From contig NZ_CP036271.1 in assembly GCF_007745175.1 (NCBI RefSeq), forward strand, positions 3,112,314 through 3,176,313: a DNA stretch of 64,000 bases, given 5' to 3'. The notes under the pieces were generated by a model. The model worked only from the letters and a program-made list of their open reading frames with translations, did no database searches and was not told where the DNA came from. The DNA is from Caulifigura coniformis. Lineage in GTDB: Bacteria > Planctomycetota > Planctomycetia > Planctomycetales > Planctomycetaceae. Position 1 is the first letter of the stretch. Each line of letters starts with the position of its first letter. Both the position numbers and the translations under genes were made by a program. Below are positions 177-62,576 of this stretch, piece by piece.

Positions 177-254
177 TGATGGTCTCGCTCTGCGGAAGAG
201 AACTGGACGAGAGGTTATCACAGACTCGCAGGGCCGGTCCCGGCAGCAGGGCGA

Positions 255-345
255 GTCACTTTTTCACAACAGGTCGTCGGTCGTCACCGCAGATCATGTT
301 GCGGCAACGACGAACTGGCCCATCCTGAAAAAAGCGACCAGCCTT
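255..345. repeat. Direct repeat with CCGCA...TGCGG hairpin, copy 1
   Basis: This segment starts GTCACTTTTTCAC, contains a short hairpin (CCGCA, 7-8 base loop, TGCGG at about 287-305) and ends with GGCCCATCCTGAAAAAAGCGAC. It matches 719-820 over its whole length with scattered substitutions. Read on the minus strand, both copies end in similar residues (RCRNMICGDD here, HCRKMTCGDE in the other), then a stop. Confidence 0.75.
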
Positions 346-356
346 GCGCGCAACTC

Positions 357-604
357 TCAGGCACGGACAGGGATTGGGAACAGTGCGGAGGTGTTCGACG
401 CTGAGGGGGCAAGGAGGGCGCGTTGTGTGGGTGGTCCTGTACTCCTCGCCCTCTTTTCCTGCGGAAGTTCAGTGGAAGGATCGTGAGAGCGTGGGTGGTG
501 CGGACAGGGAGCCGGCCGGGCCGGGGTGTGTGACGACGGGTTGATGGTGGTTGTGTTCATGGGATCCTCCACCATGACGGGGGCGGTTGCGCGGGGGGGG
601 GGCC
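357..604 (-). repeat. Dispersed leader element, copy A, with short ORF starting MNTTTINPSS
   Basis: Reading the minus strand, the element has a CCGCGCAACC block (about 585-595), a GGTGGAGGAT Shine-Dalgarno, an ATG at 560 and a 67-codon frame ending at 357. The first residues are MNTTTINPSSHT. In the next frame the sequence reads GKEGEEYR then EHLRT, residues also found in copies C and D, so this copy looks frameshifted. The ATG points toward the HD hydrolase gene that starts at 176. On the plus strand a hairpin-like segment (GGGCAAGGAGG ... CTCCTCGCCC) covers about 402-453. Confidence 0.6.
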
Positions 605-688
605 GGTACTCGGTACTCGGTACTCGGTACTCGGTACTCGGGAGTCGGTACTCGGTACTCGGGAGTCGGGAGTCGGGAGTCGGGAGTG
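605..688. repeat. Heptamer tandem repeat, 12 units
   Basis: Twelve consecutive 7-base units are either GGTACTC or GGGAGTC (last unit GGGAGTG): five GGTACTC, one GGGAGTC, two GGTACTC, then four of the second type. The array directly follows the ten-G run at the edge of leader element copy A. A single GGTACTC sits at the matching edge of copy C (34225-34231), so the array probably expanded from a base sequence within the element. It is not a CRISPR array. Confidence 0.9.
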
Positions 689-718
689 CGTTGGCGGGTG
701 GGGATTGGGGCGGGGCGC

Positions 719-820
719 GTCACTTTTTCACCGTCGGTCGACTTTCGTCACCGCAAGTCATTTTGCGGCAATGGCGCAACCCAACGATGAATCGGCCCAT
801 CTTGAAGAAGTGACCAGTCC
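719..820. repeat. Direct repeat with CCGCAA...TTGCGG hairpin, copy 2
   Basis: This is the second copy of the 255-345 repeat. It carries a perfect 6-bp stem CCGCAA / TTGCGG around a 6-base loop and ends GGCCCATCTTGAAGAAGTGAC. Stem bases are kept or compensated between the copies while the loop differs, which suggests the structure matters or that the repeat is a folded RNA/DNA element. Confidence 0.75.
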
Positions 821-921
821 TGGTCCCGGCAGCCACCCGCGTGATTCCCGTCGTCTCGCCGGGTAGACTCCTCGGTCCAGCAGTGCCTGCGTTCGTCTTC
901 CTGTTTGAGGTCACACCTTCG

Positions 922-6093: not shown

Positions 6094-6108
6094 CTGTCAC
6101 TCATGACA

Positions 6109-6146
6109 AACACCCCGGCGGCTCCTGGAGCCGCCGGGGTGTTTTG
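6109..6146. terminator. Bidirectional intrinsic terminator
   Basis: A long GC-rich stem (ACACCCCGGCGGCTC / GAGCCGCCGGGGTGT) with a 3-base loop is followed by TTTT on the plus strand. It sits between the convergent TPR and MntR-type genes. Confidence 0.85.
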
Positions 6147-8369: not shown

Positions 8370-9581
8370 ATGCCCTGGCTCCGCAAGAAGTTGAAGACCG
8401 CCATCAAGCGTCAGATCATCAAGCATCACCGCCGGGCGGGGCGGGTGATGTTCAGCGATACGACGCTGCGCGATGGCGAGCAGATGCCGGGGGCAACGCT
8501 CGAACCGCATGAGAAGGCGCGGATTGCCGTGGCGCTGGAGGAACTGGGCGTCCATTCGATCGACGCCGGGTTTCCTGCGTCTTCGCCGGCGGATGTCGAA
8601 GCGATTCGGCTCATCAATGCAGCTGTCTCGAAGCCGGTGCTGACGTGTCTCGCCCGGACGTTGAAGGGGGACATTGATGCGGCCGACGAGGCGCTGGCGG
8701 GACGGATTACCCGCAAGCGGGGGGTCAGCCTGTTCTGCGGGGTGAGTCCGATCCATCGCCAGCACAAGCATCAGAAATCGACGTCTGAAATGCTGACGAT
8801 GATCACGGATGCGATTCAGTACGCGACGTCGAAATTCGACGTGATCGCGTTCGGCCCGGAGGACAGCAGCCGGACGGAGATGGATTTTCTCTGCCAGTGT
8901 TACAAGGAGGCGATCGACGCGGGAGCATCGACGATCGGCTTCGCGGATACTGTCGGCATCCTGACGCCCGACAAGACGTACGACATGCTGCGCCGGATCC
9001 AGGACGGGGTCCCGAATATCGAAAAGGCGCTCCTGGCGATCCACTTCCACAACGACCTGGGGCTGGGAGTTGCCAACAACCTGGCGGGCATCCAGGCGGG
9101 GGCGCACGTCGTCCAGTGCACGATCAACGGAATCGGCGAGCGGGCAGGGAACACGGCGCTCGAGGAAGTGGCCCTTGCCATGGCGATGAATCCGGATGAG
9201 TTCGGCGCGCCGGACACGCTCGACCTGTCGAAGCTGGGGCCACTGTGCAAGCTTGTCGCGGAGCTGACGGGGGTCCCGATTCCCGTCAACAAGCCGCTGG
9301 CCGGGGCGAACGTGTTCGCGACGGAGGCCGGGGTTCACCAGGACGGGTTGCTCAAGAATCCGGACACGTATCTACCGTACCGGCCTGAACTGGTCGGGGG
9401 GGATCCGATCCGGCTGGTTCTGGGGCGTCACAGCGGCCGCCGCGCGGTTGCGAGCCGGCTGGCGGAACTGGGAGCCACGGTGAGTGACGAGCAGGCCCTG
9501 GCTGTGCTGGAGCGAATCAAGCGGCTGCCCAAAGGGTCGGAGGTCACGGACGCCTGGCTGGTTGAGCAGGCGCGGAACTGA
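8370..9581 (+). CDS. LeuA/HMGL-like acyltransferase (2-isopropylmalate/homocitrate synthase family) without regulatory domain
   Basis: The enzyme family condenses acetyl-CoA with a 2-oxoacid. The product is 403 residues. Motifs: DTTLRDGEQ at 30-38, the metal-site HFHND at 225-229, [10 protein letters not shown], and GVHQDG. After the catalytic (beta/alpha)8 domain and linker (ending [12 protein letters not shown]) only about 45 residues remain, so the roughly 110-residue LeuA leucine-binding dimer domain is missing. It could therefore be isopropylmalate, homocitrate or citramalate synthase. A basic N-terminal stretch ([18 protein letters not shown]) is unusual. A good Shine-Dalgarno (AAGGAAACGG) precedes the ATG. 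No other leucine genes are nearby. Confidence 0.82.
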
Positions 9582-10010: not shown

Positions 10011-10050
10011 GAAGCCTGGCTTCTTTGGAGAAGCCGGGCTTCTTGTCTTT
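10011..10050 (+). terminator. Intrinsic terminator
   Basis: The 14-bp stem GAAGCCTGGCTTCT / AGAAGCCGGGCTTC (one G-U type mismatch) has a TTGG loop and is followed by TTGTCTTT. A very similar hairpin ends the gene at 62515. Confidence 0.8.
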
Positions 10051-10180: not shown

Positions 10181-10915
10181 ATGAAACAAATCATCTGTAT
10201 GAACTGGGGGACGGCGTACGGGGCTGATTACGTCAATCGCCTGTACTCCATGGTGTCCCGCAATATCACCGGCCCTTTCCGGGTCGTCTGCCTCACCGAC
10301 AACGTGAAGGGGATCCGGCCGGAGGTGCAGTGCCATCCCTGTCCGGTGATCAATATCCCGGCTCCGCAGAAGAACCGTGGATTCCGTAAGGTGACCTTGT
10401 GGGCCCCGAAGGTCGACGGCCTCGAGCCTGGCGATGCGTTGTTCATCGATCTGGATGTCGTGATTACCGCGTCGATCGACGACTTCTTCACGTATGAGCC
10501 ACAGAAGTCGTTCCTGGTCATTCGCAACTGGACCCAGCCCGACAAACGAATCGGAAACACGTCGGTCTACCGGTTCCGGATCGGCAGCCATCCCTATCTG
10601 AAGGCCGACCTCGAAGCGAACCATCCTCAACTGCTGGCGAAGTACTCCAATTCCCAGACCTACATCTCCGAGAACGTGAAGGAGATGGACTTCTGGCCGG
10701 ACGAGTGGTGCCGCAGCTTCAAGGTGCACTGCGTTCCGAAGGGGATCAAGCGCTACTTCGTCGAGCCGGGGCTGCCGACAGGAACGCGGATCGTGGCCTT
10801 CCCGGGGACGCCGAATCCTCCGGATGCGGCCGTCGGATACTGGCCGGCTCCGTGGTACAAGCGCGTCTACAAGCAGTTTCGCCCGGCGAAGTGGGTCGAA
10901 CAGCACTGGAAGTGA
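10181..10915 (+). CDS. GT-A-type glycosyltransferase-like protein
   Basis: The 244-residue cytoplasmic protein resembles small GT-A glycosyltransferases. The N-terminus (MKQIICMNWGTAYGADYVNR) is followed by a nucleotide-sugar-binding region and a DXD-type motif FIDLDVV with Asp90 and Asp92, which would bind the metal and nucleotide sugar. Later motifs are RFRIGSHPYLKADLEAN, VPKGIKRYFVEP and FPGTPNPPDAAVGYWPAPW. The donor and acceptor cannot be named. A Shine-Dalgarno-like GGAG lies before ATG 10181. It is the first of three closely spaced genes with a likely glycan- or surface-related task. Confidence 0.75.
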   Translation: MKQIICMNWGTAYGADYVNRLYSMVSRNITGPFRVVCLTDNVKGIRPEVQCHPCPVINIPAPQKNRGFRKVTLWAPKVDGLEPGDALFIDLDVVITASIDDFFTYEPQKSFLVIRNWTQPDKRIGNTSVYRFRIGSHPYLKADLEANHPQLLAKYSNSQTYISENVKEMDFWPDEWCRSFKVHCVPKGIKRYFVEPGLPTGTRIVAFPGTPNPPDAAVGYWPAPWYKRVYKQFRPAKWVEQHWK

Positions 10916-10968
10916 TGCTGGTTGGGATTCCGGCAGGTCAATGATTCCGAAGAAGGCGCAGGGACGCG

Positions 10969-12291
10969 ATGGGGGCAACGGTCCTCTCGTTGGATGAGAC
11001 GAAGACGGCTTCCGCGCGCCAGCGCCTGGAAGAGGTTGTCCGTCGAATCGCCGTCGGAAACGACCAGTTCCGGTTTGCGCTGCTTCGTGACTCGCCAGTC
11101 GACAGCGGGCTGATTGATCACGGCGACGCCGATCTCCTCGGGACGCGTGAGTCGGTCACCGCGCTATTGAGGATGCTTCTGGAGAGGGCGCTGGCGGGCG
11201 AGGTTCACTTCCGAGTGACTGCCAACAAGCCGGAGAAGCTGCAGCTCTCCGTGTTCTCGACGGATCTTGCTCACTCCGCGACTTATGACCTGTGGGTCGA
11301 CCTGGCACAGATCCATGAGGGGAGATCGCTGATCCGGTTCGAGGATGTCGCGCCGTTGCTTTCGCAATCGTCGGGCATTGAGCCGCTCCCCCCGTGCATT
11401 GCAGGCGCCCTCTACCTGCAACACCTGATCGCCAAGAGAAAGCCGCTGACAGCGGCGCATACGTCGTCGCGGATCGAATCCTTTGCCACGCATCATTGTT
11501 CCGATTCGAGTTGCGGCGTGGCACGCTGGTTCCGGGATATCCTGCGCGTCGGAAGGATTCGTCCACCAGCCCCCTCGGAAGCTGCGATCCAGATCGAGCG
11601 GCTGCTGCAGATTCGCCTGGATGATGAGCGTCACCGGGCGACTTCCCGATGGCGACTTCGCCGAAAAATCGAATCCGGGGACGCGGTGTGCATCCAGGGA
11701 GTTGATGGAGTCGGGAAGTCGACTCTCATCTCCGCTCTTGTGGAGGAAGGAACCGCTGCCAGCGAGTCGCTGATCGGCAAGAAGCTTTATCGCCGCTCGC
11801 TGATCTACCGCATGGCCACCCGGACGGCCCGTCATCGCGCATCGAACGCCCGCGAGGCCATCGACGAACGGCTGGCAACGATCGTCTTCCTGAGAGCCGT
11901 CTCGGCGTTCCGGAGAACACTGGCCTGGCGCCGGCTGCGCGGGGCGGGCACCCTGCTGGTCGACCGGTCGCCCCTCGATTTCCTCTACCTCGGTCGGAAG
12001 TCGGATCACGGACGGTTTCATCCGGCCATCGGCCGCCTGGAGTCGCTCGCCCCTTCGACGCCCACGATCCAGCTTGTTGCCCCGCATACGGTCACTTCGG
12101 CCCGGAAGCCTGAACTGACGGAGGCTGGACATGTCGCGTACGACGACGCGATGCTCCTGCGAATCGCTGGCCAAAGCCCGTGCGATCACCTTGTGTTTCA
12201 CAACGGCGGGAACGTCTCCGAGTCGTCGATCGCCCTGGCCGCGTACCTGACGCGTTTCATCAGAACGCGCGGTCGAAAACAGGCCGCCTGA
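10969..12291 (+). CDS. Fusion of nucleotidyltransferase-like domain and thymidylate-kinase-like P-loop kinase
   Basis: The 440-residue protein has two parts. Residues 1-130 resemble a nucleotidyltransferase fold: an acidic DHGDADLLGT motif near residue 50 followed later by YDLWVDL, the usual positions of catalytic Asp residues, though no clear GS motif is seen. Residues about 235-430 form a thymidylate-kinase-like P-loop domain with Walker A GVDGVGKST (244-252) and a DR-type motif LLVDRSPLDFLYLG. Such dTMP-kinase-like proteins occur in bacterial polysaccharide clusters, where the true substrate is unknown. It starts 53 bases after the glycosyltransferase and is followed after 27 bases by a kinase-like gene. 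Confidence 0.7.
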   Translation: MGATVLSLDETKTASARQRLEEVVRRIAVGNDQFRFALLRDSPVDSGLIDHGDADLLGTRESVTALLRMLLERALAGEVHFRVTANKPEKLQLSVFSTDLAHSATYDLWVDLAQIHEGRSLIRFEDVAPLLSQSSGIEPLPPCIAGALYLQHLIAKRKPLTAAHTSSRIESFATHHCSDSSCGVARWFRDILRVGRIRPPAPSEAAIQIERLLQIRLDDERHRATSRWRLRRKIESGDAVCIQGVDGVGKSTLISALVEEGTAASESLIGKKLYRRSLIYRMATRTARHRASNAREAIDERLATIVFLRAVSAFRRTLAWRRLRGAGTLLVDRSPLDFLYLGRKSDHGRFHPAIGRLESLAPSTPTIQLVAPHTVTSARKPELTEAGHVAYDDAMLLRIAGQSPCDHLVFHNGGNVSESSIALAAYLTRFIRTRGRKQAA

Positions 12292-12318
12292 GTCCTTTCT
12301 CCTGTCCGCCGAGTTCGA

Positions 12319-13080
12319 ATGAGCGTTGCCCCGAATCGCCTGTTGCGTCAATGGAAGGCGCGTTTCGGCATTCGGAAGCGGGTCCGCGAAATCACGGACG
12401 AGCTCAGGCATCAGTTTCCGCTGCGTGCTCTGGCTCCGTCGTCGCACGCGGGCGGTTTCGATTCGATCTACTTCCTCGAGGATCACGGCGGCGAGCGGTT
12501 CGGCGTGCTCAGACTGAACAACCCGCATCAGAAACGAAAGGCCGTTCACACCGACCTGCCGCGGCGATCGCCTCCCCCCCGGGAGCGCATCCAGAGGGAA
12601 TGGCACGCCTACTCGGTTCTCGGTCCCCTCGGCCTCTCGCCACAACCCCTCTGGCGGAGCGACGACGCGGTCGTCTGCTCGTATTCAGCGTCTCCGAACG
12701 TGCGCCGTCTGATGGAGGAGGGGAGGGCCGACCTCACTGCGGTGTTCACCGCGGTCCTCAACACGATCGGAAAGATGCACGATGCGGGGATCGTGCATCT
12801 GGACCTGTCTCCCGGGAACGTGCTCGTGTGTCGGAAAACACTGGCGGCGCTGCTGATTGACTTCGAATATGTGTCTCTCGACGCACGATCCGTCGAGGAT
12901 GATAAGAGATATGACTGGCGACAGATGATCGAACGCATCCGGAAACGATCGACCATCCTGGGACAGCAACAGACCTCTGAGGCAGCGCTGGCTGCGGCCA
13001 TCGACGCGAGCGGCTACTGTCTGCGAATCCGGGAGGCCCTCGCCGACGGCGGTCGGCCGACTGCGAATCTCACCACGTGA
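12319..13080 (+). CDS. Small protein-kinase-like (lipopolysaccharide-kinase/RIO-type) protein
   Basis: The 253-residue protein has the catalytic core of the kinase-like fold: HLDLSPGN at 160-167 (Asp162 catalytic, Asn167 metal) and a DFE motif at 181-183 in place of DFG. The glycine-rich loop is weak (HAGGFDSIYFLE) and the beta-3 Lys position reads FGVLRLNN, so the usual ATP-binding Lys may be replaced by Arg. Such proteins include WaaP/InaA-type sugar kinases that phosphorylate surface glycans. Its place after a glycosyltransferase and a P-loop kinase supports a glycan phosphate role. Activity is uncertain given the altered Lys. Confidence 0.7.
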   Translation: MSVAPNRLLRQWKARFGIRKRVREITDELRHQFPLRALAPSSHAGGFDSIYFLEDHGGERFGVLRLNNPHQKRKAVHTDLPRRSPPPRERIQREWHAYSVLGPLGLSPQPLWRSDDAVVCSYSASPNVRRLMEEGRADLTAVFTAVLNTIGKMHDAGIVHLDLSPGNVLVCRKTLAALLIDFEYVSLDARSVEDDKRYDWRQMIERIRKRSTILGQQQTSEAALAAAIDASGYCLRIREALADGGRPTANLTT

Positions 13081-13178
13081 ACCGCGTTGCGAGCGCCGTC
13101 GAACTCTCATCGAGCATGATGAGCAAGGTCGGCGGATTCGTGGCATTTTCAACCCCGAAACTGAGTCCGAAGTCCGTC

Positions 13179-13571
13179 ATGAAGATTGAACACGTCGCGA
13201 TCAACGTCCCTGATCCGCTCGGCTTTGCCCGGTGGTATGTCGAGCATCTGAAGCTGACCGTGGCCCGCCGGTCGATGGACCCGCCCTATGGGCACTTCCT
13301 TGCGGATCAGAGCGGGCAGGTGATGCTGGAGATCTATGGGAATGCCCAGGCCCCCAGCCTCGATTTCCCGGCCGTGGCGCCGCCTGCACTTCACTTCGCA
13401 TTCGTGTCGGCCGATCTGGCGGCGGACGTGAAGCGACTTGTGGCCGCGGGAGGGTTGCACGTGTCCGGACCGGAGGTCGTCGCCGGGGGAGATGAAGTGG
13501 CGATGCTGCGCGACCCGTGGGGAGTGTGCGTGCAGCTGGTGAAGCGTTCCCAGCCGATGCTGAAGGGGTAA
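13179..13571 (+). CDS. VOC-superfamily (glyoxalase/bleomycin-resistance-like) protein
   Basis: The 130-residue protein is a single VOC fold: MKIEHVAINVPDPLGFARWY carries the first metal-ligand His, VMLEIYGN the Glu, LHFAFVS a second His, and PWGVCVQLVKR the last strand. These folds bind a metal and act as lyases, epimerases or dioxygenases; the substrate is unknown. ATG 13179 is chosen because it begins exactly at the first strand. A GTG at 13077 in the same frame would add 34 unrelated residues. It may be transcribed with the preceding kinase-like gene, whose stop is 99 bases upstream. Confidence 0.82.
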   Translation: MKIEHVAINVPDPLGFARWYVEHLKLTVARRSMDPPYGHFLADQSGQVMLEIYGNAQAPSLDFPAVAPPALHFAFVSADLAADVKRLVAAGGLHVSGPEVVAGGDEVAMLRDPWGVCVQLVKRSQPMLKG

Positions 13572-26104: not shown

Positions 26105-28279
26105 ATGACTGCTGCGTTCGTTCAGATCCGAAAAATGCTCCGTCAGGCCCTCGGCCGCCGCTGCGCCCCCCGCCGGCGCCTTCCGGGAGGTGCTAGCCAG
26201 ATCCAGTCCCTCGAGAGCCGTCAGCTCCTGAGCGCGAAGCGGTCTTATGATCAGCTTCGCGAGGCCGGACATGCGACGGACCACGCAGTCGATCATCGAC
26301 TGCACGTCGACGGCCTGCCGCTTTCGACCGCCGCCGCGCCCGGAGCATCGTCGCCCCAGGGCATCGCGCCCTTCGCTCTCTCTCAAACGTTTCAGCTCTC
26401 GAGTCGTCCGTCGGCGACCAGGACGATCTATCTCGACTTCAACGGGCACACCACCAGCGGCACCTGGTGGAACACGAACTTCAACGACGGCGCCGCATTC
26501 ACGACTCCGGCCTTCAGCGTGGACGGAACCCCCTCGTTCAGCGACGCGGAGCTCGAGCGAATTCAGTTGATCTGGGAGCGTGTGGCGGAAGACTTCGCCC
26601 CGTTCGACGTCAACGTGACGACCCAGGATCCGGGCACGGCGGCGATCGTGAAGAGCGGGGCCGGCGATTCCGCCTGGGGCGTGCGGGTTGTCGTCGGCGG
26701 CAGCTACGGCGACTGGTTCGGGGAGTCGTCCGGCGGAGTTGCATACCTCAACACCTTCGGATCGTCGATCGACATGGGGGTGTTCGTCTTCTCGAACAAC
26801 CTTTCGAACGGGGAGAAGAACGTCGCGGAAGCGATCAGTCACGAAGTCGGGCATTCCCTCGGCCTGTCCCACGACGGACAGGGGAGCACCGGCTACTACG
26901 CTGGCCACGGCAGCGGCTCGACTGGCTGGGCCCCGATTATGGGGGTGGGCTACTACCGTGAATTGAGCCAGTGGAGCAAGGGGGAGTATTCCCGTTCCAC
27001 CACGCGGCAGGACGACCTGACGATTATTTCTTCGGCGACCAACGGCTTCGGCTACCGCGTCGACGACTACGGAAACAACCGTGCCGTTGCTTCGCCGCTG
27101 GCGTCAACGACGTCCGGCGGATCGAAGGTGGTCAATGCTGCGGGTGTGATCGAACGCAACACCGACCAGGACTGGTTCAGCTTTACGACGACAGGGGGCG
27201 TCGTCAGTCTCGACTTCGCCGGCGCTGCCCGCGGCTCGAATCTCGACATCGCGGCATCGCTCTATAACGCCAACGGCCAGCTCATCGTGACGTCCAATCC
27301 GGTCGACCAGACGACCGCGAGCATCTCGAGGAACCTTGCGGCCGGGACTTACTATGTGATGGTCGACGGGGTCGGCGTCCGCGGAGTCAACGACGGCTAC
27401 AGTGACTATGGCAGCCTGGGCCAATACTTCATCACCGGAACAATTCCGGACAACGGCGCGGGTGGCGGAGGAGATGACTCGGGCGGCGACAGTGGGACGC
27501 CTGCCGGGACTTCGTCGATCACCGGCCGGGTCTGGCATGACGCCGACGGGGACGGCCGCGTGGACGTTGGGGACGCCGGTCTCCCGGGCGTGATCGTCTA
27601 TCTCGATGCCAATAACAACGGCCTGTTCGAGTCCGGTTCTGAGCAGTTCGTCGTGACCGGAATTGACGGGCGATACACGTTCGGCGGTCTTGCGGCCGGG
27701 ACGTACCGGATCCGCCAGGTTCCCGGAGCCGGCTACGCCCAGGTCTACCCCAGGTCGAACGCCGCGCGTTCAGTGAGTCTTGGCACCGGGCGGAGCGTGT
27801 CCAATATCGACTTCCGCAGCCTGCAGCCGCCGGCGATCGGGAATCTCGGTGCAACGGTTGCTTATGCGGCCCGGTCGGTCGCCGTTCCGATTGCTTCGAC
27901 CGGCACGGTGACGGACGGCGATACCGTGGTGTTCACCGGGTTCAAGCTCACGGCTCAGATCACCTCTGGCGGAAACTCGGCTGACCGCCTGACGGTCCAG
28001 AACCAGGGACGCGGGGCAGGGCAGGTCGGGTTGTCGGGCAGCGCTCTCTATTACTCCGGCGTCCGCGTCGGAACCGTTTCCGGTGGAAGTGGGACCGGAG
28101 TGCTGACGATCACCTTCAATAATAGCGCCACCTCGACAGCGGTGCAGGTCGTTCTCCGGAGCATCAGCTACCGGTCGACGGCTACCAGCCCTCTGCCGGG
28201 GCTGAAGACGGTTCGCTTTCTGATGACGGAACCGAATCGGACCGCGAGTGTGCCGGCGACGAAGCAGATCCAGATCTGA
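26105..28279 (+). CDS. Extracellular metzincin-type zinc protease with SdrD B-like domain
   Basis: The 724-residue protein begins with a basic N-terminus and the planctomycete sorting-type motif LESRQLLSA near residue 42. The catalytic domain carries HEVGHSLGLSHD with zinc ligands His246, His250 and His256 and catalytic Glu247 (the HExxHxxGxxH metzincin consensus). A PPC-like segment follows (DQDWFSFTTTGG, GTYYVMVDGVG), then an SdrD B-type domain (GRVWHDADGDGRVDVGDAG) with Ca2+-type Asp residues, and a cadherin-like beta domain at the C-terminus. A strong GGGGGAG lies 5 bases before the ATG. It is paralogous to the next gene. Confidence 0.88.
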   Translation: MTAAFVQIRKMLRQALGRRCAPRRRLPGGASQIQSLESRQLLSAKRSYDQLREAGHATDHAVDHRLHVDGLPLSTAAAPGASSPQGIAPFALSQTFQLSSRPSATRTIYLDFNGHTTSGTWWNTNFNDGAAFTTPAFSVDGTPSFSDAELERIQLIWERVAEDFAPFDVNVTTQDPGTAAIVKSGAGDSAWGVRVVVGGSYGDWFGESSGGVAYLNTFGSSIDMGVFVFSNNLSNGEKNVAEAISHEVGHSLGLSHDGQGSTGYYAGHGSGSTGWAPIMGVGYYRELSQWSKGEYSRSTTRQDDLTIISSATNGFGYRVDDYGNNRAVASPLASTTSGGSKVVNAAGVIERNTDQDWFSFTTTGGVVSLDFAGAARGSNLDIAASLYNANGQLIVTSNPVDQTTASISRNLAAGTYYVMVDGVGVRGVNDGYSDYGSLGQYFITGTIPDNGAGGGGDDSGGDSGTPAGTSSITGRVWHDADGDGRVDVGDAGLPGVIVYLDANNNGLFESGSEQFVVTGIDGRYTFGGLAAGTYRIRQVPGAGYAQVYPRSNAARSVSLGTGRSVSNIDFRSLQPPAIGNLGATVAYAARSVAVPIASTGTVTDGDTVVFTGFKLTAQITSGGNSADRLTVQNQGRGAGQVGLSGSALYYSGVRVGTVSGGSGTGVLTITFNNSATSTAVQVVLRSISYRSTATSPLPGLKTVRFLMTEPNRTASVPATKQIQI

Positions 28280-28645: not shown

Positions 28646-30757
28646 ATGAGCGGCTCAACTCGACACTCGCTGGTGCGTCGGATTCTGCGGATGGCGGGAT
28701 GCACATTCCCTGCCCGCGCCCGTTCGCGGGCGGCCAATTCGCCCATTGAGACTCTCGAGAACCGTCAGCTGCTGTCCGCAACGGCGCCGCGCAAGGTAGC
28801 GACCGCACCGGCTGCCCCCGCCTCGGCGACAACCCCGGTCGGCTCCCAGTCCGTGCCTGTCGCTCTCGCTCCCCTTGGCGAGACGTTCAACCTCAGCAGC
28901 CGTCCCACGGCGACCAAGACGATCTATCTTGATTTCAACGGGCATACGACGTCCGGCACTCCGTGGAACACGGTGTACACAGGCGGCGCGTCGTTCGCCA
29001 CACCGGCATTCTCGCTCGATGCCGACACGGCCAATTTCTCGGCCGCGGAGCTGATTCAGATTCAGCGGATGTGGCAGAGAGTCGTCGAAGATTTCGCGCC
29101 GTTCGACGTCAACGTCACGACGGCCGATCCCGGTGTTGCCAACCTGATCAATTCCGGCGCTGGTGACACCCGCTGGGGAACGCGAGTTGTCATCGGCGGC
29201 GACCACAACCAGTGGCTGAATCAGTTCAATGGAGGGATCGCCTTCCTGGACTCATTCGGGTCTTCGACTGACATTCCCTGCTTCGTCTTCTCGATCACGC
29301 AGGGGAACAACGAGCAGGTCATCGCGGAGACCATCAGCCACGAAGTGGGCCATACTCTGGGGCTCAACCACGACACCACGTTCAGCGACCCGCTTGGGTA
29401 CTTCGCTGGGCAAGGCACAAGCCCGATGAGCTGGGGGCCCATCATGGGTTCTGCCTATGGCCTTGATGTCACCCAGTGGAGCAAGGGGGAGTACAGCAAC
29501 GCGAACAACTTCGAGGACGATCTGTCGATCATCACAACCCGGAACGGGTTTGGCTATCGCGTCGACGACCACGGAAACACCCGTTTCACCGCGAGCCAGC
29601 TCACGGGGAAGAAGGTGGGAGCGACGCGGACAGTCGCAGCTGCTGGTGTGATCGAACGGAATACGGACACGGACTGGTTCAGCTTCTACACCACCGGCGG
29701 CGCGGTGAACCTGGCGTTCACCGGTGATTCCATCGCGGCGAACCTCGATATTTCGGTCACGCTCTATAGCCCCGATGGTCTCGAGATCATGACCATTAAT
29801 CCCGCCTTGTCGCTGAATGCAACGCTTTCGGTGGTGCTGCCCGCGGGCCGCTACGAAGTGAAGATCGACGGAGTCGGATTCGGAAATCCGGCCGTCGACG
29901 GATACAGCGACTACGGCAGCCTTGGTCAGTACTTCATCAACGGAACCATTCCCGATACGAGCTCGGGAACGCCCACGGGCGGTACGAGCGTGATTTCGGG
30001 ACGGGTCGTTTCCGATGCGAATAACGACGGCATCATCAACGGGACGGACGCTGGGATCCGCGGAGTGATGGTGTACATCGATCTGGATGGAAACGGAGTC
30101 TTCAATGCGTCGGTCGACAAGTCGGCCCTGACTGATGCCAGCGGCAACTTCAAGTTCACCGGTCTGCGTGGCGGAACGTATTCCGTCTACCAGATCGTGC
30201 CTTCGGGATGGTCGCAGACGTCTCCCGTCACTTCGGGGCAGGACGTCTTCGTGGCGGACGCCACCTCGACCGCGAACGTGTTCATCCGGAATGTCCGGCC
30301 GCCTGTGCTGAGCGGATTCGGGGCGACCGTCAATTATTCCTCGACGGCGGCCCAGCCGATCCTGCTGACGACGAGCGGCACGGTGAACGACGTGGACTCC
30401 CCGGCGTTTAACGGCGGTAAGCTGACCATCGGCCTGGCGGCCAACGGCAATGCGGCCGATGTCCTTGGCGTTCGTAACCAGGGGAACGCGGCCGGACAGA
30501 TTGGCGTCTTTGGAAATGTTGTGCGCTATGGCGGCAAGGTCATCGGCACGATGACCGGCGGGACCGCCGGGTCGAGCCTGGTGATCACGTTCAATTCCAG
30601 CGCGTCGCAGGTGGCCGTGCGGGCCCTGATCAAGAACCTGACGTTCAAGACCGCCGCATCCAACCCGTCGAAGGCGACCCGGACGATTTCCTTCCAGATG
30701 ACCGATGGCTTCGGAGGATCGAGCACCCGGATCACCAAGCAGGTCAAAGTGATCTGA
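28646..30757 (+). CDS. Extracellular metzincin-type zinc protease, paralogue of the preceding gene
   Basis: The 703-residue protein repeats the plan of its neighbour: basic N-terminus, sorting-type motif LENRQLLSA near residue 41, catalytic HEVGHTLGLNHD (zinc His232, His236, His242; Glu233), a PPC-like part (TDTDWFSFYTTGG, GRYEVKIDGVG), an SdrD B-type domain (GRVVSDANNDGIINGTDAG) and a C-terminal cadherin-like domain. The two proteins align end to end, so they arose by tandem duplication. GGAG lies 8 bases before ATG 28646. Terminates in a hairpin shared with the convergent FAH gene. Confidence 0.88.
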   Translation: MSGSTRHSLVRRILRMAGCTFPARARSRAANSPIETLENRQLLSATAPRKVATAPAAPASATTPVGSQSVPVALAPLGETFNLSSRPTATKTIYLDFNGHTTSGTPWNTVYTGGASFATPAFSLDADTANFSAAELIQIQRMWQRVVEDFAPFDVNVTTADPGVANLINSGAGDTRWGTRVVIGGDHNQWLNQFNGGIAFLDSFGSSTDIPCFVFSITQGNNEQVIAETISHEVGHTLGLNHDTTFSDPLGYFAGQGTSPMSWGPIMGSAYGLDVTQWSKGEYSNANNFEDDLSIITTRNGFGYRVDDHGNTRFTASQLTGKKVGATRTVAAAGVIERNTDTDWFSFYTTGGAVNLAFTGDSIAANLDISVTLYSPDGLEIMTINPALSLNATLSVVLPAGRYEVKIDGVGFGNPAVDGYSDYGSLGQYFINGTIPDTSSGTPTGGTSVISGRVVSDANNDGIINGTDAGIRGVMVYIDLDGNGVFNASVDKSALTDASGNFKFTGLRGGTYSVYQIVPSGWSQTSPVTSGQDVFVADATSTANVFIRNVRPPVLSGFGATVNYSSTAAQPILLTTSGTVNDVDSPAFNGGKLTIGLAANGNAADVLGVRNQGNAAGQIGVFGNVVRYGGKVIGTMTGGTAGSSLVITFNSSASQVAVRALIKNLTFKTAASNPSKATRTISFQMTDGFGGSSTRITKQVKVI

Positions 30758-35760: not shown

Positions 35761-35806
35761 AAAGCCCCCTGCAGGACGAGCGTCCTGCAGGGGGCTTTTG
35801 CGTTTT
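35761..35806. terminator. Bidirectional intrinsic terminator
   Basis: The long perfect stem AAAGCCCCCTGCAGGA / TCCTGCAGGGGGCTTT has a 6-base loop and is followed by TGCGTTTTC on the plus strand. Convergent genes end on both sides. Confidence 0.88.
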
Positions 35807-40395: not shown

Positions 40396-41436
<1,041 letters not shown>

Positions 41437-62539: not shown

Positions 62540-62576
62540 GAAGCCCGGCTTCTTTGAAGAAGCCGGGCTTCTTTTT
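62540..62576. terminator. Bidirectional intrinsic terminator
   Basis: The perfect 14-bp stem GAAGCCCGGCTTCT / AGAAGCCGGGCTTC has a TTGA loop followed by TTTTT. It overlaps the stop codon of the convergent minus-strand gene (62575-62577), and strongly resembles the hairpin at 10011-10050. Confidence 0.9.

Follow-up and report, generated by a model that had tools for sequence, protein, structure and literature searches.

A recurrent gene set encoding a putative glycosyltransferase, a nucleotidyltransferase-like and thymidylate-kinase-like fusion protein and a kinase-like protein with an Arg/DFE signature in Caulifigura coniformis

Introduction

What could a putative glycosyltransferase, a protein joining a nucleotidyltransferase-like part to a thymidylate-kinase-like P-loop, and a kinase-like protein with arginine at the usual catalytic lysine position be doing side by side in a planctomycete genome? 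The locus lies in a 64,000-nucleotide stretch of Caulifigura coniformis DNA (NZ_CP036271.1, positions 3,112,314 to 3,176,313; hereafter the window, whose own numbering is used below). A preliminary description of this DNA had proposed the three gene products, considered their order unusual and suggested that they might modify a surface glycan. To our knowledge, the chemistry of the lipopolysaccharide (LPS) core is poorly described in both Planctomycetota and Verrucomicrobiota.

Results

The open reading frame listing bore out the three-gene set: three ORFs of 244, 440 and 253 amino acids, all on the + strand, fill positions 10181-13080, with 53 bases between ORF1 and ORF2 and 27 bases between ORF2 and ORF3. 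Third-position GC content (0.82, 0.74 and 0.75 for ORF1, ORF2 and ORF3, respectively) falls in the same range as that of the four measured neighbours (0.74-0.82). The flanking genes are metabolic by Pfam and NCBIfam, leuA-like upstream and glyoxalase-like downstream, the latter starting with GTG and overlapping ORF3 by 4 bases. A scan of the window detected no tRNA, and no Rfam family at the gathering threshold. The features discussed below are the following.

10181..10915, + strand: ORF1, putative glycosyltransferase of GT-A-like type (DLD, residues 90-92)
10969..12291, + strand: ORF2, fusion of a nucleotidyltransferase-like part and a thymidylate-kinase-fold P-loop kinase (profile, fold and motif evidence)
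11014..11664, + strand: nucleotidyltransferase-like N-terminal part of ORF2, residues 16-232 (D53-x-D55, D107, H152, K156; hhalign)
11125..11133, + strand: D-x-D motif of that part (D55 in 21/21, D53 in 20/21 and D107 in 19/21 aligned sequences)
11677..12267, + strand: C-terminal thymidylate-kinase fold of ORF2, residues 237-433 (VIA-align to 2pbr_A: Z 12.4, rmsd 3.2, 177 aligned)
11698..11721, + strand: P-loop GVDGVGKS of ORF2 (G.DG.GK[ST] in 21/21)
11962..11967, + strand: Asp332-Arg333 of ORF2 (D and R in 21/21)
12319..13080, + strand: ORF3, predicted protein-kinase-like small-molecule or glycan kinase (Pfam Kdo and RIO1; low-confidence model)
12460..12462, + strand: Asp48 of ORF3, glycine-rich-loop region (D in 13/14)
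12511..12513, + strand: Arg65 of ORF3, usual catalytic lysine position (R in 14/14; predicted strand 60-67)
12796..12819, + strand: HLDLSPGN catalytic loop of ORF3 (H.D....N in 14/14)
12859..12867, + strand: DFE of ORF3 instead of DFG (D, F and E each in 14/14)

ORF1 reads as a putative GT-A-like glycosyltransferase, its DLD motif being invariant in the nine aligned sequences, and it lacks any strongly hydrophobic segment. It had no match in Pfam or NCBIfam and only chance-level rows among PDB sequences, and a Pfam search with nine ORF1 members found no family in more than one of them. Relatives on alphaproteobacterial plasmids have been named either 'glycosyl transferase' or hypothetical by other annotators. 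In Ensifer such a relative adjoins an ELM1 gene and a Kdo cytidylyltransferase gene, and in Cereibacter and Agrobacterium the neighbours form no clear kind of glycan locus. The GT8 family (PF01501) was found in 1 of the 59 genomes of our phylum sample and is therefore too rare there for comparison with ORF1.

The C-terminal half of ORF2 adopts, in the predicted model, the P-loop NMP-kinase fold of the thymidylate kinase (TMK) type, and in a Foldseek search gluconate kinase topped the list (7.2e-5), with human TMK in third place (2.2e-4). It shares with thymidylate kinases a DG-type P-loop, an RK-x-E LID-like motif and the Asp332-Arg333 pair, which sits where the TMK 'DR' motif stands. It differs from them in the fused N-terminal part, in a K-x-x-Y-R-x-S stretch of its own (residues 271-277) and in scoring below the cut-offs of TIGR00041 (11.4 vs 83.25 bits), of a second dTMP-kinase model (15.7 vs 193 bits) and of PF02223 (11.5 vs 27 bits).

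The N-terminal part of ORF2 looks nucleotidyltransferase-like. When compared profile to profile with 14 PF14907 (NTP_transf_5) proteins, it gave an hhalign match of 77% with a score of 42.4, albeit in a comparison that favours the motif region because these proteins had been picked by script from 30 loci on a KG-type...DxD pattern in order to fix the reading frame; 30 column-shuffled controls scored at most 16.7. The match is collinear over 174-178 of 222 columns with the D-x-D motif in register. An earlier, uncleaned PF14907 set had given 29.7% over 51 columns only. Unlike NTP_transf_5 proteins, ORF2 has this part fused to a kinase and lacks a direct Pfam match: PF14907 was listed for none of 20 ORF2 N-terminal parts searched, and searches of Pfam, PHROG and PDB sequences with the ORF2 part yielded no match of note, with chance-level PDB rows such as neuropilin. 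In fold searches of the ORF2 model the kinase half filled the match lists, and the order of strands and helices in the N-terminal part was compatible by eye with a nucleotidyltransferase. The profile match of the N-terminal part and the fold of the kinase half support the proposed fusion. A PF14907 search of the C. coniformis genome itself, read by eye, pointed to three places, one of them above the cut-off.

ORF3 passes the Pfam cut-offs of Kdo (PF06293; 25.8 bits vs 21.3) and RIO1 (25.1 bits vs 22.0), and its predicted model, a poor one (pLDDT 55), has a RIO/Bud32-like fold. Among 14 aligned members including that of the window, 12 matched PF06293 at E 0.01, and one relative (L007) fell under the cut-off with 18.5 bits. 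The HLDLSPGN loop, the DFE and the arginine in place of lysine had been pointed out previously; all are present. Arg65, Glu94, Asp162, Asn167, Asp181 and Glu183 occur in every one of the 14, Arg65 is always accompanied by DFE, and all carry an IDFE[YF]-type motif with a later [FYW]D. These features are shared with choline/aminoglycoside-type kinases (CAK; choline kinase, LicA), the choline-kinase-type members of which combine the K-to-R change with DFG-to-DFE (PMC1821047). ORF3 differs from that group at the glycine-loop position of the choline-kinase Asn, where by sequence position there is Asp (13/14) or Phe (1/14), and neither the full choline-kinase motif nor the Brenner motif, as defined in PMC4364537, was found in any of the 14 proteins. 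It resembles the WaaP/Kdo LPS core kinases in its PF06293 score and in that several relatives stand in LPS-type loci; WaaP, however, has Lys51 and D188-L-H (PMC6147952), and ORF3 has Arg and D-F-E in 14/14. We take ORF3 to be a protein-kinase-like phosphotransferase with intact catalytic motifs. Because the pairing of Arg with DFE is a published one in choline-kinase-type enzymes, Arg65 appears to be an unusual but tolerated residue and no mark of a dead kinase.

A search for the same gene order in other genomes had been set beforehand, and it showed the three families to be neighbours elsewhere. ORF2 was found in 17 of 170 genomes of the family, and all 13 genomes bearing ORF3 also have ORF2 (hypergeometric 2e-16, without correction for kinship). 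The two genes are at most 3.2 kb apart in 10 of these 13 genomes and on different contigs in the other 3. All three genes are adjacent, with 4-base overlaps, in four genomes besides the source (G505, G509, G518 and G521); the set is not unique. ORF1 and ORF3 share seven genomes (hypergeometric 2e-5), and a genome of the same genus as the source (G001) carries ORF1 without ORF2 or ORF3. In four ORF2 genomes no ORF3 was found, and presence is patchy inside genera (in g58, one of eight genomes, G347, has ORF2 or ORF3), although absences may be misses because few first-look candidates were scored per genome (4, 15, 10 and 6 by search). We conclude that adjacency and co-occurrence of the three families are beyond chance, and that ORF2 and ORF3 form the tighter pair, the ORF1 glycosyltransferase being an optional member. 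Searches for ORF3 in viral contigs, and for ORF2 and ORF3 in plasmids, returned nothing. A literature search gave no account of 'thymidylate kinase-like' among the matches listed, which is weak evidence of absence from print.

The suggested surface-glycan setting gained support from the loci of relatives. In this genome no GT4, ELM1, YrbL or MsbA-like gene lies within 10 kb of the set, and a GT4 relative is located at 3.82 Mb, adjoining a GT4-WaaP-type fusion; the genome does have a KdtA-type (PF04413) gene, which speaks for such a setting. Across 25 ORF2 loci we counted GT4 in 9, YrbL in 9, MT in 9, ELM1 in 5 and an MsbA-like gene in 5; the same markers occurred in none of 20 control stretches, which were evenly spaced in three genomes rather than random. 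The 25 include two loci without an ORF2 label at threshold (L015 and L017, kept as misses) and some that are not independent (L075-L078 from one genus, L010/L012 about 90% alike, L090/L092 close); six labelled loci without ORF2 and the genome G494, which has an ORF2 place, were left out. The marker reference proteins came from some of the counted loci, and with the source loci excluded ELM1 was found in only 2/22 and an LpxL-like gene in 0/23. Pfam confirmed Lip_A_acyltrans, YrbL and ELM1 proteins at ORF2/ORF3 loci. Several such loci in Planctomycetota and Verrucomicrobiota adjoin, among the matches listed, ELM1, GT4, YrbL and MsbA-like genes, and these several are LPS-core-type loci. The four other triples, as in the window, have no GT4, ELM1, YrbL or MsbA-like marker.

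In phylogenetic trees, the window ORF3 fell with the LPS-locus clade (support 97/98). Grouping the five triple-bearing ORF3 proteins together was disfavoured (AU p 0.034), and the same grouping for ORF2 was not (p 0.21). This may hint that the triple was assembled twice, and it is only a hint because the window branches are long in both trees and the group for the topology test was chosen after the loci had been seen.

Discussion

Since the three genes recur together and their relatives often stand among LPS-building genes, their probable role is to attach phosphate, or a group linked through phosphate, to the outer-membrane sugar coat. With slightly better than even confidence, we propose that the three products act as a module in the cytosol, phosphorylating and decorating the LPS core, or a surface glycan like it, ahead of export. 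In the scheme that follows we infer which glycan is targeted in C. coniformis, the substrate, the order of the steps, the group added and the chemistry. ORF1, or GT4/ELM1 partners in other genomes, would add a sugar; ORF3 would use ATP to phosphorylate a hydroxyl group, either on this glycan or on some small donor molecule, with Arg65 and Glu183, perhaps also Asp48, replacing the usual Lys/Gly set. What ORF3 has phosphorylated would next be the substrate of ORF2, whose thymidylate-kinase-like half would transfer phosphate and whose nucleotidyltransferase-like half would transfer a nucleotidyl or related group. In a fully specified version, ORF3 phosphorylates a core sugar, the ORF2 kinase half converts this to a diphosphate, and the nucleotidyltransferase-like half adds a nucleotidyl or sugar group as a cap. 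This would be a novel type of glycan phospho-decoration, by which some Planctomycetota and Verrucomicrobiota would carry a pyrophosphate- or nucleotide-linked substituent on their LPS or surface glycan; we consider it clearly unlikely.

Two known systems offer partial parallels. In pseudomycoidin maturation PsmK phosphorylates a Ser and PsmN, an annotated nucleotidyltransferase, is needed for the hexoses on that Ser (PMC9266682); this is a works-like precedent for a kinase followed by a nucleotidyltransferase as proposed for ORF3 and ORF2, albeit on a peptide substrate and with a likeness of function. The core-oligosaccharide locus of A. baumannii contains an ELM1-like gene and a predicted polysaccharide deacetylase gene, as found beside some ORF2/ORF3 relatives, and the core is left with two Kdo when the ELM1-like protein is missing (PMC10936431). 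The difference is that the sections of that article on the locus name no ORF2 or ORF3 relative.

The substrate might instead be a small alcohol such as choline, ethanolamine or a polyol, phosphorylated by ORF3, with ORF2 making a nucleotide-linked donor and transferring it to a glycan extended by ORF1. This would recall the lic1 pathway of kinase LicA, cytidylyltransferase LicC and transferase LicD (PMC10434233), and the Arg/DFE pairing and the conserved IDFE[YF] and [FYW]D motifs speak for it; the missing full choline-kinase and Brenner motifs, the fact that the window ORF3 matches Kdo and RIO1 best in Pfam, and the PF14907 resemblance of the N-terminal part of ORF2 speak against it, and we regard it as possible but unlikely. 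ORF2 could also be a nucleotide-salvage kinase in a loose operon of unrelated genes, as its fold, the metabolic flanks and the lack of an LPS-type marker near the set in this genome would allow. The scores far under the dTMP-kinase cut-offs, the extra N-terminal part and the non-random co-occurrence and adjacency elsewhere leave this reading with little probability.

Phosphorylation-regulated nucleotidyltransferase toxins are known (PMC11375011), and a patchy distribution inside genera would suit a nucleotidyltransferase toxin whose antitoxin is the kinase, or a pair serving in defence. Such a role for ORF2 and ORF3 is nonetheless highly improbable, given that ORF2 also has a kinase half with intact motifs, that the partners lie 3 kb apart or on separate contigs in some genomes, and that relatives in both phyla are linked to LPS-type genes among the matches listed. 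The chance that ORF3 is a pseudokinase or regulator is slighter still: the Lys-to-Arg change affects the position that places the ATP phosphates, but the catalytic residues are invariant and the same K-to-R and DFG-to-DFE covariation is published for choline kinase (PMC1821047), on which grounds the dead-kinase reading was rejected.

The recurrent pair of a kinase and a nucleotidyltransferase-kinase, found inside LPS-type loci in several genomes, provides defined genes for genetics, and the ORF3 relatives may serve as a natural family for studying the Arg/DFE solution in protein-kinase-like enzymes beyond choline kinases.

Three-gene set in the window

The preliminary description had placed a three-gene set at 10181-13080, and the ORF listing of the window confirms these coordinates and puts all three genes on one strand.

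The gene set and its flanking genes
8370-9581, upstream of the set, 2-isopropylmalate/homocitrate-synthase-like gene
10181-10915, same strand as ORF2 and ORF3, ORF1, putative glycosyltransferase
10969-12291, same strand as ORF1 and ORF3, ORF2, nucleotidyltransferase-like part joined to a thymidylate-kinase-like half
12319-13080, same strand as ORF1 and ORF2, ORF3, protein-kinase-like protein
13077-13571, downstream of the set, glyoxalase-like gene

ORF1 and ORF2 are separated by 53 bases and ORF2 and ORF3 by 27, and the third-position GC of all three is similar to that of the neighbouring genes. None of the proteins has a strongly hydrophobic segment, the highest 19-residue Kyte-Doolittle mean not exceeding 1.33. 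Just upstream of ORF1, positions 10011-10044 are a 34-base copy (94%) of 62540-62573, and near-perfect short self-complementary stretches lie at 6108 (6108-6144), 35761 (35761-35798) and 62539. Within the C. coniformis genome, a single contig of 6.76 Mb, parts of window positions 246-823 recur with 72-96% identity at one locus (L113) and 72-91% at another (L163), so that this is probably a dispersed repeat; about 150 bases at 41248-41400 are repeated at L164 (83%, again 69%) and L162 (81%). Positions 26402-27450 and 28898-29955, inside two long neighbouring ORFs, are 65% alike, which suggests an old duplication.

Recurrence of the set

Across 170 genomes belonging to the same family, 13 were found to carry ORF3, 17 ORF2 and 16 ORF1. 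ORF2 accompanied ORF3 in all 13 cases (hypergeometric 2e-16, uncorrected for kinship), ORF1 and ORF3 occurred together in seven genomes (2e-5, likewise uncorrected), and ORF3 was not found in four ORF2-bearing genomes of this sample. ORF2 and ORF3 lie at most 3.2 kb apart in 10 of the 13 (G000, G005, G347, G505, G507, G509, G518, G521, G541 and G542); in G542, the ORF3 relative next to ORF2 is split in two pieces (L083:10209-11016) and a further ORF3 copy lies on a second contig. The two genes are on separate contigs in G437, G438 and G440. A sample of 392 genomes from the phylum gave three with ORF3, all of them among the five with ORF2.

The preliminary description had proposed a search for the three-gene order in other genomes: all three genes are adjacent in four further genomes of a single genus (G505, G509, G518 and G521), with 4-base overlaps, in the order 2-3-1 as opposed to 1-2-3 in the window. 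ORF3 and ORF1 also overlap in G440, where ORF2 is located elsewhere; there (L079:8015-11555) the pair follows, with a 4-base overlap, a 629-aa ORF which, judged by eye, resembles an apolipoprotein N-acyltransferase. In G001, of the same genus as C. coniformis, genome searches found neither ORF2 nor ORF3, and an ORF1 relative (74% identical) adjoins a GT4 gene.

ORF3 and its arginine

ORF3 exceeds the Pfam cut-offs for Kdo/WaaP (25.8 bits, cut-off 21.3) and RIO1 (25.1, cut-off 22.0) and falls under those of the protein kinase and APH models. Its weak structure model (pLDDT 55) suggests a likeness to RIO and Bud32/PRPK kinases and places Arg65 within a predicted strand, 60-67. The reported arginine in place of the usual catalytic lysine is conserved: Arg65, together with Glu94, His160, Asp162, Asn167, Asp181, Phe182 and Glu183, is present in 14 of 14 aligned sequences, and Asp48 in 13.

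A conserved arginine is described as replacing this lysine in most choline/aminoglycoside-kinase subfamilies, accompanied in the two major ones by a DFG-to-DFE change and a glycine-loop Asn (Kannan et al. 2007, PMC1821047). Because ORF3 likewise pairs Arg with DFE, although with Asp instead of the glycine-loop Asn, Arg65 is by analogy a compensated state and does not indicate a dead enzyme. WaaP, in contrast, is described as retaining Lys51 and D-L-H (PMC6147952), and the WaaP-type domain of the C. coniformis genome has GYLKRH and IDVQ.

ORF2 and ORF1

The C-terminal half of ORF2 is predicted to adopt a thymidylate-kinase fold (mean pLDDT of the ORF2 model 76.5; VIA-align Z 12.4 and rmsd 3.2 over 177 residues aligned to 2pbr_A), and the top Foldseek match was gluconate kinase (7.2e-5), with human thymidylate kinase in third place (2.2e-4). 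All 21 aligned sequences carry the P-loop G.DG.GK[ST]; Asp332, Arg333, Arg343, Arg379 and Glu382 do not vary among them, whereas position 380 alternates between Lys and Arg. In thymidylate kinases, the 'DR' pair touches the acceptor phosphate. Judged by family score against Pfam and NCBIfam models, ORF2 does not qualify as a dTMP kinase.

For the N-terminal part, searches of Pfam, PHROGs and PDB sequences gave no notable direct match. Its profile aligned to that of 14 PF14907 proteins with 77% probability (score 42.4, 174-178 of 222 columns) and the D-x-D in register, compared with a score of at most 16.7 for 30 column-shuffled profiles; an uncleaned PF14907 set, tried first, gave 29.7% over 51 columns.

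No Pfam or NCBIfam model matched the window ORF1, and none was shared by more than one of nine members. DLD is invariant (9/9). Relatives occur in 96 plasmid records (Sinorhizobium, 77), some labelled 'glycosyl transferase'. Of three neighbourhoods viewed, that of Ensifer canadensis holds an ELM1/GtrOC1-type glycosyltransferase, a GT4 and a 3-deoxy-manno-octulosonate cytidylyltransferase; those of Cereibacter and Agrobacterium are mixed. In G176 (L093:8460-11308), a weakly ELM1-like gene (31% identity, E 2e-7) lies between two ORF1 relatives.

Genomic setting and possible function

At least eight ORF2 loci were found in a genome-contig scan, the matches listed being from Akkermansiaceae, Verrucomicrobia, Verrucomicrobiales, Phycisphaera, two Sulfurimonas, a Planctomycetia bacterium and an Oceanospirillaceae bacterium; among them, ORF3 adjoins ORF2 at the three verrucomicrobial loci. 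In one Sulfurimonas (L014:821-10663), the ORF2 relative has a YrbL-family gene and an MsbA-like transporter in its vicinity, company that it also keeps in Planctomycetota.

Of 25 ORF2 loci, some had LPS-type markers (GT4 in 9, YrbL 9, methyltransferase 9, ELM1 5, MsbA-like ABC 5, LpxL-like 2), whereas the 20 control stretches, taken from three genomes, had none. When the source loci of the reference proteins were left out, the counts were GT4 7/23, YrbL 6/22, methyltransferase 7/23, ELM1 2/22, MsbA-like 3/23 and LpxL-like 0/23. Pfam bore out the ELM1, YrbL and Lip_A_acyltrans identities near ORF2 relatives. A. baumannii that has lost an ELM1-like protein is described as being left with a core of two Kdo, and the core locus of this species also holds a predicted polysaccharide deacetylase (PMC10936431). 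The C. coniformis genome has a PF04413 (Kdo-transferase-type) gene. Against an LPS-type setting count the lack of any of these markers less than 10 kb from the window set, their absence from the other four triples as well, and the position of the genome's own GT4, which lies at 3.82 Mb next to a GT4-WaaP-type fusion. This fusion protein, 673 aa long, consists of a GT4-type glycosyltransferase and a kinase domain of WaaP/Kdo type (PF06293, 60.1 bits; L112:8200-10221, the same gene as L095:289-2310), and the GT4 directly before it is 48% identical to the GT4 adjoining ORF2 elsewhere.

The proteins' intact catalytic motifs, their lack of strongly hydrophobic segments and the gene linkage are consistent with a scheme in which ORF3 would attach phosphate, as an ester, to a glycan or a small donor molecule and ORF2 would work on that phosphate. 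A precedent that works alike is pseudomycoidin, described as having a Ser phosphorylated by a kinase and hexoses on this same Ser that need an annotated nucleotidyltransferase (PMC9266682). A specific pyrophosphate-and-cap chemistry is improbable. The components come from known superfamilies; the literature searched yielded no mention of an ORF2-type fusion or of the three-gene set, which is weak evidence. With only slightly better than even confidence, we regard the set as an LPS-core or surface-glycan module.
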